The notes under the pieces are model-generated. The model was not told the origin of the DNA. It saw only the letters and a program-made list of their open reading frames with translations, and made no database searches. The translations under genes were made by a program, and so were the position numbers. A stretch of 64,000 bases of DNA. Source: Candidatus Pelagibacter sp. IMCC9063 (GTDB lineage: Bacteria > Pseudomonadota > Alphaproteobacteria > Pelagibacterales > Pelagibacteraceae). The stretch spans positions 296,001 to 360,000 of the forward strand of contig NC_015380.1 of the NCBI RefSeq assembly GCF_000195085.1. Direction: 5' to 3'. This document shows, piece after piece, positions 13,359 to 17,822 of this stretch (position 1 is its first letter; each line of letters starts with the position of its first letter).

Positions 13359-15539
13359 TAAATTTCTCTTTCAATTGTGATTGTCTTAAAGAATTCGATC
13401 ACATCTCCTTTTTTAATATCATTGAAATCTTTAATAGAAACACCGCATTCCAAGCCTGCTTTTACTTCTTTTGCTTCATTCTTTTCTCTAAAAAGACTGT
13501 TCACTTTACCTGTATAAACAACCGCACCATCTCGAAGCAGTCTTAACTCTGAATTATTTTTTATTTCACCCTCTGTAACTTTAACACCAGCAACTTTACC
13601 AGCTTTCGAAACGCTGAATACCTCTAATACTTCGCAAGTTCCTTGGCCTTGCTCTTCCGTCTCTGGAGCTAACAAGCCAGATATTTTTTTGGTTATATGA
13701 TCTAGTGCTTCATAAATTATATTAAAGTAAAGTATTTCTAATTTATAACTTCTAGCTAAATCTTTTGCTTCCTTATTTGGTCTAATATTAAATCCTAATA
13801 AAATAGCATTCGAAGCTTTTGCTAAAGTGACATCTGTTTCTGTGATAGGCCCAACGGCTGATAAAATAATTTTTGTCTTAATGTTTTCAATTTTAATTTT
13901 TTCAATTGCATTAGCTAAGGCTTCTAGAGATCCGTTAACGTCTGTTTTTAAAATAATATTATATTCTTCTTCTGGATCAGACTCTCCAAAAATATCAGTT
14001 TTTTTGTTACCTGCTAGTTTTTTGTTTTTAATCTCTTGTTGTCTATACTCTACAATTTCTTCAACCTTAGAATCATTTTCTACAACAACAAAATCATCTC
14101 CTGCATTAGGGGCTCCCTGAAAACCTACAATCTCTACCGGCGTGGACGGACCTGCTTCATTAATTAAATCTCCTCTGTAATTGTAAATAGCTCTTACTTT
14201 TCCATTAGAAGCACCACTAACGAACAAATCTCCTTTTTTTAAAGTACCTTTCGCAATTAAAACTGTAGAAACTGGACCTCTTCCTTTATCTAGTCTTGAT
14301 TCAACTACAACTCCTGCAGCTGCAATAGAAGGGTCTGCTTTCATATCTAAAATTTCTGATTGTAATAAAATTAACTCTTTTAATTTATCTAAATTAGTTT
14401 TTTTTAATGCGGATATTTCTACGCTCAAAACATCTCCTCCCATTTCTTCAACTATCAGTTCATGTTCTAAAAGTTGGTTTCTAACCTTTGTGGGATCTGC
14501 ACCTTGTAAATCACATTTATTAATAGCAACAATAATAGGCACTTGTGCCGCTTTAGCATGTTGAATAGCCTCTATCGTTTGAGGTTTAATTCCATCATTG
14601 GCCGCAACTACTAAAATAACAATATCTGTAATCTTGGATCCTCTAGCTCTCATTTCTGTAAATGCAGCATGTCCAGGAGTATCTATAAATGTAATCAAAC
14701 TTTTATCATTCACATTTACTTGGTAAGCTCCTATGTGCTGAGTAATACCCCCATGCTCCGAATTCACTACACTTGCATCTCTTAAAGAATCTAGGAGAGA
14801 TGTTTTTCCATGATCAACGTGCCCCATTACAGTGACAACTGGTGGTCTTGAAACTGCATTTTCTAAGTCTTTATCCTTAGATAGAATATCTTTCAATAAC
14901 TGATCTGGCTCTTCTTCTATAAGAATTTCGTGTCCAAATTCTTTTACAATAAATTCTGCTGTGTCTTGGTCAATCGTATGATTAATAGTAACTTTTACAT
15001 TTTTAGTTAATAGATATTTAATAACTGTATTGGCTCTTTCTGCCATTCTATTAGCCAATTCTTGAATGGTAATAACTTTTGGAATTTTAACTTGTCTGAT
15101 TACTTTTTGCCCGTCTGTATCTTGACCACTTTGTTTTTTAAAAAGTTTTTCTCTGGATCTTTTCACTGCTGCAAGACTTCTGACTTGAACCTCTTCTTCT
15201 TCTGATAGTGCTTTGGTGACTGTTAAACGATAATCTCTTTTTTTCCCAGCTGCTTTTTTATCGGCTTTTTTAGATAGCTCTTCTTGAATTTTTATTTTTG
15301 CCCACTCTTTAGCTGATTTAGGCTTTTCAGGGCTCTTTGCAGGTTTAGTTGTTGGTGAAGGTTTACTTTCAGGAGTAGTTGTACTATCCGATTTCTCGAT
15401 TACAGGATTGGGAACTTTTGGTTCTTCTTTTTTTCCAAAAATAACAGATGTTTTTTGTGCTTGTTTCTTATTTACCGAACTGGGTGCATTACCAGTAAAA
15501 TTTTTTAGAGTTAATTTTTTTTTTTTCTTTCGTGCTCAT
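13358..15539 (-). CDS. infB: Translation initiation factor IF-2, frame broken in the N-terminal poly-A tract
   Basis: GTPase that brings initiator tRNA to the ribosome. The main frame contains G1 GHVDHGKTSLLDSL, G3 DTPGHAAF and G4 NKCD, then domains II-IV. The natural start is the ATG at 15539, with an AAGGTG ribosome-binding site 7 bases upstream. Five codons in is a run of twelve A (15515-15526 on the plus strand as T) that puts the N-terminal region out of frame by one. With 11 or 14 A, a Lys/Pro-rich N-terminal domain (TLKNFTGNAPSS..., SAKEWAKIKIQEELSKK) joins the core to give about 726 residues. Without it, the first usable in-frame start is GTG at 15166. Confidence 0.93.
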
Positions 15540-15560
15540 TTTTATTCACCTTGGTATTCA

Positions 15561-17105
15561 TTAAATGTCGAAAACTTTTTTTCTAGCTCTCATAATCAAG
15601 TCATCAGCATCTTTTCTAGAAATATCAAACTCCTCAAGTATACCATCAAATTTTTCTCTTTTACCTTTGATTTCATCATACCCACCGATTAACTCATCCG
15701 TAGCCAATTCTGCAAAATCTTTTAGAGTTTTAATGTTATCCTCACCTAGAATTAAAAGCATTCCAAGACTAAGGCCTTTATGGGTAGCCAAATCATCTTC
15801 TATACCCAATTCTTTTACTTTTTTAGATACTTCCTCAGCTTCTTCTTGAATGTATTCTTTTGCTCTATTTTGAAGCTCTGTCGAAGTCTCTTCATCAAAA
15901 CCTTCAATTTTTAAAAACTCAGGCAAACTTGCATTTGCGATTGCATTGATTGTCGGAAATCCTTCAGCCACAAGAAGTTGAGCCATAGTTGTATCTATTT
16001 CTAAACTCTTAACTAATTTTTCAGTGTTGTCTTTAAATTCAGTCTGTCTTTTTTCTGATTCTTCCTTATCTGTAAGTATATCAATCTCATAATCTAATAG
16101 CTTAGATGCCAGTCGAACATTTTGACCACGTCTTCCAATTGCTTTACTTAGATTGTCCTCATCAATAACTACTTCGATTCTTCTATCATCTTCCGCAATG
16201 ATAACTTTCATAACTTCGGCAGGAGATAAAGCGCTCTTAACTAAAGAAGATGCGTCTTCCGTCCAATTTATAATGTCAATTTTTTCTCCTTGCAATTCGT
16301 TAACGATAGCTTGAACCCTACTACCTCTCATACCAACGCAGGCACCAACTGGATCTATCGAACTATCTTTTGATTGAACGCATATTTTGGCTCTACTACC
16401 TGGATCTCTAGCAACCGATTTAATTCCAATTGTACCTTCATAAATTTCTGGTACTTCTTGATGAAATAATTTTGCTAAAAATTGCGGATGCGCTCTAGAT
16501 AAAAATATTTGTGGTCCTTTGCTCTCTCTTCTTACATCGTAGCAGTATGCTTTAATTCTATCTCCATTTTTTAAATTTTCTCTTGGAATAAGCTCTTCTC
16601 TTCTTATGATTGCTTCTGATTTTTGCAAATCTACAATTACATTGCCGTATTCGGATCTTTTAACTATGCCACTTAAAATCTCTCCTACCTTATCTTTAAA
16701 TTCTTCAAACTGCCTATCTCTCTCAGCGTCTCTAATCTGATGTGATATAACTTGTTTTGCAGTTTGCGCAGCTATTCGTCCAAAATCTACTGGTGGTAAT
16801 TCTTCATTAACTATATCGTCAATCTTAGCCTCACTATTTTTTTCAAGTGCTTCCCCTAACCCTATTTCAGAGTGGGTATTCATGACTTTTTCAACTACTT
16901 TTAATTTTCTTCCAAGCTCAATTTTTCCTGTAGCTCTATCTATTACAACGTAAATTTCGTTTTCATTTCCATATCTAGTTTTGGCAGCTTTTTCTATGGC
17001 ACTTTCCATTGAAGTTAAAACCAAGTCTTTGCTTATAGATTTCTCATCAGCAACAGCATCGGCTATTCTAATTAATTCAGTACTATCAATTCGGTTATTT
17101 AGCAT
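15561..17105 (-). CDS. nusA: Transcription termination/antitermination factor NusA
   Basis: RNA polymerase-bound factor controlling pausing, termination and antitermination. The 514-residue protein has an N-terminal polymerase-binding domain, an S1 domain (GEILSGIVKRSEYGNVIVDL), KH1 (PVGACVGMRGSRVQAIVNEL) and KH2 (KAIGRRGQNVRLASKLLDYE). Helix-hairpin-helix repeats and an acidic tail occupy about residues 360-510. It is followed 21 bases later by infB; the small ylxR gene often found between them is absent. An intrinsic terminator lies only 13 bases upstream of its ATG, and rimP is missing. Confidence 0.97.
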   Translation of the reverse strand: MLNNRIDSTELIRIADAVADEKSISKDLVLTSMESAIEKAAKTRYGNENEIYVVIDRATGKIELGRKLKVVEKVMNTHSEIGLGEALEKNSEAKIDDIVNEELPPVDFGRIAAQTAKQVISHQIRDAERDRQFEEFKDKVGEILSGIVKRSEYGNVIVDLQKSEAIIRREELIPRENLKNGDRIKAYCYDVRRESKGPQIFLSRAHPQFLAKLFHQEVPEIYEGTIGIKSVARDPGSRAKICVQSKDSSIDPVGACVGMRGSRVQAIVNELQGEKIDIINWTEDASSLVKSALSPAEVMKVIIAEDDRRIEVVIDEDNLSKAIGRRGQNVRLASKLLDYEIDILTDKEESEKRQTEFKDNTEKLVKSLEIDTTMAQLLVAEGFPTINAIANASLPEFLKIEGFDEETSTELQNRAKEYIQEEAEEVSKKVKELGIEDDLATHKGLSLGMLLILGEDNIKTLKDFAELATDELIGGYDEIKGKREKFDGILEEFDISRKDADDLIMRARKKVFDI

Positions 17106-17118
17106 TTTGATTTTTAGT

Positions 17119-17146
17119 AAAAAAAAAGGGCCTAAGCCCGTTTTTT
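17119..17146 (-). terminator. Intrinsic terminator between trmB and nusA, possible nusA attenuator
   Basis: On the minus strand the sequence reads GGGC-TTAG-GCCC followed by nine T (A-run at 17119-17127 on the plus strand). The plus strand also gives GGGC-CTAA-GCCC then six T, so it could act in both directions. It can end the lnt-metK-trmB transcript. Because it finishes 13 bases before the nusA start codon, no promoter fits between them. Any nusA transcript must start upstream and pass through it. Confidence 0.8.
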
Positions 17147-17211
17147 AATTTGTTAATTTTCCTGGAAATTACTCCAATATTTAAGATTTTACAATAACTA
17201 AAAAATTAACC

Positions 17212-17822
17212 TTATTTCCTAACTTTTTGGCTCTTAAAAAGTATTTTGTTTGGCCAAGGTGTTTTACGTCTATTTTTTTGTGAACAATTGGGATTTTTTT
17301 TAAAATCCTTACTTTCCAAACAGTCCTGAACAGATTCAAAATAATCCTGATTGTCTGTTGCAAAATATAGCTTCCCATTTTTATCTAGTCTTTTTACAAT
17401 ATTCTTTAAAAAAGGCAGCTGAACAAGTCTACGCTTGTGATGTTTTTTTTTATGCCAAGGATCGGGGAATAAAATAAAAATTTCTTTAAAGTAAATTTTT
17501 TTATACTTTTCTAAAAATTTTTCTACAGGATCGGGATAAACTAAAATGTTGTCTATGTTTTGTTTTACGCAGCTATAGATAACACTGACTACTCCATTGA
17601 TAAAAGGCTCTATGCCAATAATTTGACTATTTAAATTATTTTTTGATAATTCAATCAAATTATGCCCCATGCCAAATCCTATTTCTAGGATATTGGGAGC
17701 GGTTTTTTTTATTTTTTTAAAATTAAATTGAAAATTTTTAAGATTTTCGTCTAGAATTTTTTTTTTTCTAACGAAATTTTACGAGACTGAATTCGTCCAA
17801 AGAATATTTTTTTTTTAATCAC
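17212..17822 (-). CDS. trmB: tRNA (guanine-N7-)-methyltransferase TrmB, frame broken near N-terminus
   Basis: SAM-dependent enzyme making m7G46 in tRNA. The intact C-terminal three-quarters begins at MGHNLIELSKN and holds LFPDPWHKKKHHKRRLVQ, the family signature. Upstream, the expected N-terminus (FFGRIQSRKISLEKK then ILDENLKNFQFNFKK and LEIGFGMGH) is present but split by eleven A (17757-17767 as T). One extra A restores a 203-residue protein. The best start is the GTG at 17822, which overlaps the metK stop (TAGTG) by one base. Confidence 0.85.

Follow-up and report, generated by a model that had tools for sequence, protein, structure and literature searches.

Short terminators of the form GGGc...gCCC, followed by a T-stretch, have been described before the rimP-nusA-infB operons of many bacteria as the rimP-leader (Naville and Gautheret 2010, PMC2965389), at terminator-to-gene distances of 4 to 130 nt. 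In the accessible text of that paper NusA is proposed as the likely effector, with the choice between RimP and NusA left open in 2010, and Pelagibacter is named only for another motif. Rfam holds a longer, 102-position model for a leader of the same operon (RF01770, 'Gammaproteobacteria rimP leader'), and the available part of a paper on E. coli places two terminators upstream of rimP (PMC6511841). An earlier note on this DNA had pointed to autoregulation through the nusA leader in Bacillus; the accessible portion of a 2025 review states this for B. subtilis, where NusA controls its own synthesis by stimulating termination in the 5' leader (PMC12288461, citing Mondal et al. 2016). For SAR11, the word nusA does not occur in the available main text of a structured-RNA survey (PMC2704228), and our literature search returned no paper whose title treats a nusA leader in this group.

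The element before nusA

The window, the whole 64,000-nucleotide stretch of Candidatus Pelagibacter sp. IMCC9063 DNA that was analysed, carries on its minus strand the order metK, trmB, leader, nusA, infB, rbfA, truB, rpsO; gene names were assigned by recognition of the translations, and metK and trmB were also matched in relatives. Between trmB (17181..17820, start approximate, the frame shifted near the 3' end in this assembly) and nusA, the first gene past the leader (15561..17105, with its ATG from 17105), lies a terminator-type hairpin, GGGC-TTAG-GCCC (17128..17139), identified from its letters, its folding and its conservation in the family. Its 5' arm GGGC occupies 17139-17136, the loop TTAG 17135-17132 and the 3' arm GCCC 17131-17128. 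A U-tract of nine T (17119..17127) follows directly, and a 13-nt gap with the letters ACTAAAAATCAAA (17106..17118) separates this tract from the nusA ATG. A hairpin with a U-tract behind it is the classic form of a terminator. The earlier note's observation of such a hairpin is confirmed and, at the level of sequence, so is its claim that the hairpin stands 13 bases before the nusA ATG, between any upstream promoter and the gene.

The element resembles the rimP-leader in its GGGc 5' arm and gCCC 3' arm, in the T9 stretch directly after the hairpin, in its position (13 nt before nusA with infB downstream, inside the 4-130 nt range), and in being without a larger conserved structure or visible antiterminator across an alignment of 18 leaders. 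It differs in that the next gene downstream is nusA and not rimP, which is why we class it as a rimP-less variant, and in that the Pelagibacterales stem is mostly AT-closed with a T-run of exactly nine. The shared order metK-trmB-leader-(rimP)-nusA is an argument for descent from the rimP-leader. Membership of RF01770 was rejected, since the window scored 20.5 bits against a cut-off of 47 and the opposite strand scored similarly (20.1); none of 20 loci reached an Rfam cut-off, and the gammaproteobacterial model misses the Pelagibacterales form of the leader. With the B. subtilis leader the element would share a terminator in the 5' leader that controls transcription into nusA, although B. subtilis does have rimP (ylxS), which served as the control for the RimP_N search. 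We would read the hairpin and T9, with a probability of roughly 0.7, as a leader attenuator of the nusA-infB operon that derives from the rimP-leader and is most likely autogenously controlled by NusA.

Conservation and form of the hairpin

Taken alone, the 61-nt leader gave a modest dinucleotide-shuffle z-score of -1.79 (10 of 200 shuffles folded equally well), and a generic promoter/terminator scan did not detect the nusA hairpin because that scan requires at least five pairs. The case was therefore built on conservation. Within the window, both strands together hold 243 T-runs of at least 7, 53 of them with an abutting hairpin, and the nusA-leader hairpin is the most stable of these 53; one other hairpin is more stable but does not abut its T-run. 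The exact pattern GGGCN{3,6}GCCCT6 occurs a single time in the 1.28 Mb genome.

The earlier note had made its suggestion depend on conservation of the hairpin before nusA in relatives, and this was found: GGGC-N3..5-GCCC-N-T6 is present in 260/297 Pelagibacteraceae genomes, nearly always once, against no matches of a reversed-pattern control in the same 297. Pattern and nusA were compared by hand from per-genome tables, with adjacency measured on the loci that were read. A nusA match was found in 267 of the 297 genomes; the pattern occurs in 260 of these and in none of the 30 genomes without such a match. The seven genomes with nusA and no pattern all have truncated nusA matches, visibly cut at a contig end in G011, G018, G035, G047, G064 and G080, and in G104 beginning at residue 53 and reaching base 4 of its contig. 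In every one of the 54 family loci read, the hairpin lies 8-21 nt before the nusA start, and the sister family retains it in 19/19 loci. The genome-unique pattern, its conservation in the family and the top stability among the 53 hairpins together rule out a chance hairpin. Two matches were found in three genomes, the second being the opposite strand of the same palindrome in G000 and G247 and lying on another contig in G129; a bidirectional terminator was rejected, as G000 and G247 are the only two of the 297 genomes in which the hairpin matches on both strands.

Pairs were tallied by script because MAFFT had placed the sister-family stem one column off. The tally comprises 153 rows (69 distinct strings); L121 was excluded as a duplicate of the L105 upstream region, and so were the rimP loci L073-L102. 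Some contigs occur twice among its 132 family rows, having come from both of two collections. No start was in view at L198 and L199. The T-run is nine in 148 of 151 Pelagibacterales rows and ten in the other three (family: nine in 129 and ten in 3 of 132; sister family: nine in 19/19). The letters of the loop change from row to row while the T-run holds at nine, and the inner C-G pair and the four-base length of the loop are constant in all 132 family rows. Of the 19 sister-family rows, 14 have U-G as the inner pair, 1 has C-G, 2 have U-A and 2 a non-standard combination. At the second pair outside GGG/CCC, 122/132 family rows have A-U, 8 have G-U and 2 a broken U-U, and all 19 sister-family rows have G-C, a compensating change from A-U to G-C.

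Across the alignment of 18 leaders the terminator stem alone was predicted, with neither a second conserved structure nor an antiterminator, and no pair shows a double change; covariation is seen only between the families. The window's genus has lost the U-A pair adjoining GGG (it reads C-U or U-U, the latter also in L017) and keeps the nine T; loss of this pair makes the stem weaker, at about -7.9 against about -12 kcal/mol. Short repeats in the leaders of this genus, considered as a possible leader structure, were not upheld by eye in L004 and L005.

Loss of rimP and trmB around the leader

No RimP_N match was found in the window's own genome or in any of 147 Pelagibacterales genomes, and 123/142 genomes of the class (Alphaproteobacteria) have one; the loss of rimP, asserted in the earlier note, is thereby borne out, and it is because of this loss that the leader now adjoins nusA. 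Among the rimP loci of the best-scoring 30 of these 123 class genomes, 20 carry, in the 300 nt preceding the RimP domain, GGG[CT]...CCC followed by a T-rich tail; the rest of that strand has no match in all 30 (96.6 kb in all), and the two matches on the other strand mirror this same hairpin in position. Retention is not universal after rimP loss. Outside the order, eleven rimP-less alphaproteobacterial loci that include the 5' region of nusA were inspected by eye, and only three (L108, L109 and L114) show a GGG...CCC hairpin with a T-run, or four if the strong divergent hairpin of L112, whose 5' arm includes GGGC and which has T4, is counted; none was seen by eye before nusA in L106, L107, L110, L111, L113, L117 or L119.

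Upstream, trmB was matched in four genera, g1, g6, g8 and g10, the window's own among them, and in the single sister-family locus covered; in the other family genera the search matched metK only. Since 20 of these 30 class-level rimP loci carry the leader before rimP, metK-trmB-leader-rimP-nusA is the most likely ancestral order, with rimP lost in Pelagibacterales, trmB lost here in most family genera, and the leader surviving both. That it was kept after the loss of trmB argues that it serves nusA. The same evidence bears on the possibility that the hairpin is instead the 3' terminator of an upstream metK(-trmB) unit, with nusA reached by read-through or from a separate start, as would fit the co-directional position of the hairpin behind metK or trmB. 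We regard this as unlikely, given that the pattern is essentially unique in each genome and tied to nusA, being absent wherever nusA was not matched; that the hairpin persists where trmB is gone; that in other alphaproteobacteria, L086 and L097 among them, it precedes rimP, with metK and trmB not found upstream; and that promoter-like boxes stand just before it in the sister family and in genera g4 and g12.

An order that has no RimP and yet keeps the leader amounts to a natural deletion experiment, and argues against RimP as the effector. Because the GGG/CCC stem and the nine T were retained after the loss of rimP, and in most genera of trmB, the rimP-leader may be a sensor of NusA and not of RimP, and in SAR11 perhaps one of a small number of RNA switches with which a streamlined genome still regulates, a proposal that we hold to be evenly poised. 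The motif type has already been described; the new point is an evolutionary one, in that its distribution argues for a leader that goes with nusA and not with rimP. It suggests that in streamlined ocean bacteria the nusA-infB operon is still under feedback control, and it makes the question of the effector testable with a minimal leader well under 100 nt.

Promoter-like boxes, the gap and a proposed mechanism

In the sister family, CTTGATT-N17-TATA[AG] precedes the hairpin in 19/19 loci and ends 30-35 nt before GGG, and TTGWWW-N15-17-TATA precedes it in all 37 loci of genera g4 and g12. The window has a weak promoter-like site, TTGTAA-17-TAATTT (17166..17194, minus strand), which ends 26 nt before GGGC and occupies the position of the relatives' TTGAWW-16/17-TATATT, and which is itself not distinguishable from chance (shuffle fraction about 0.9). 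Scoring of promoters against shuffles is weak in such an AT-rich genome, and single sequences mostly do not rise above their shuffles (the shuffle fraction has a median of 0.13 for g4, 0.77 for the sister family and 0.90 for g1). The boxes are informative by their near-fixed position alone, in genomes that are related and AT-rich; on that basis they may mark a transcription start. The sister-family pair (L053-L072) is also very uniform, most of the 19 loci having TG immediately ahead of the second box, and in Pelagibacter-like genomes (L133, L136-L193) a block close to TTACATTATTGAAATTTC, at about 2445-2465, is conserved between the -10-like box and the hairpin.

Shine-Dalgarno-like sequences lie in the gap between T-run and ATG in 36/54 family loci, and in many relatives directly after U9; the transcripts of these 36 must therefore begin no further downstream than the T-run. 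No such sequence is present in the window's 13-nt gap or in the 12-14 nt gaps of the g1, g8 and g10 loci, so a leaderless start is possible in the window's clade. There, the nusA mRNA could be leaderless or begin inside the gap, with the hairpin merely insulating the gene from upstream transcription, and the TATA-like letters right after the T-run in some g10 members would suit such an arrangement. We nonetheless consider it improbable, both because of the Shine-Dalgarno-like sequences in the gaps of other family members and because a gap of 8-21 nt leaves little room for a start. Still less probable is an action of the hairpin and U9 on translation or mRNA stability in place of termination (5' stem protection, or a U-tract feeding ribosomal protein S1), which would accord with a Shine-Dalgarno directly after U9 but not with the terminator form of the element, its position before rimP and not nusA in other alphaproteobacteria, or the 4 to 130 nt spacing quoted above for the described leaders.

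The leader attenuator reading, which builds on the directly observed hairpin, T-run, conservation, covariation and independence from rimP and trmB, would have RNA polymerase either start a few tens of nucleotides upstream or read through from metK/trmB, and meet the hairpin just before nusA. Some complexes would stop there, with termination in vivo expected at the T-run, and the rest would enter nusA. NusA bound to the polymerase would raise the fraction that stops, and NusA would in this way limit its own operon; by analogy with B. subtilis, NusA is probably the effector of this autogenous attenuation.

The N-terminal frame of infB is broken in the window at a run of 12 A (15440-15560, minus strand), where MSTKEKKK is followed by a shift to KLTLKNFTGNAPSS; in the relatives L002 and L003 a G stands inside the A-run and infB is in frame, and the break may be a sequencing error, a real mutation or a slippage site. 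Compared with the same two relatives, trmB changes frame near its 3' end (17181-17300, minus strand), with its conserved C-terminus in the neighbouring frame. The nusA gene itself is interrupted in G013 (L105/L121), which gives two matches with a TAG, and in G239 (contig C25), with two in-frame TGA codons; both interruptions are possibly assembly errors.
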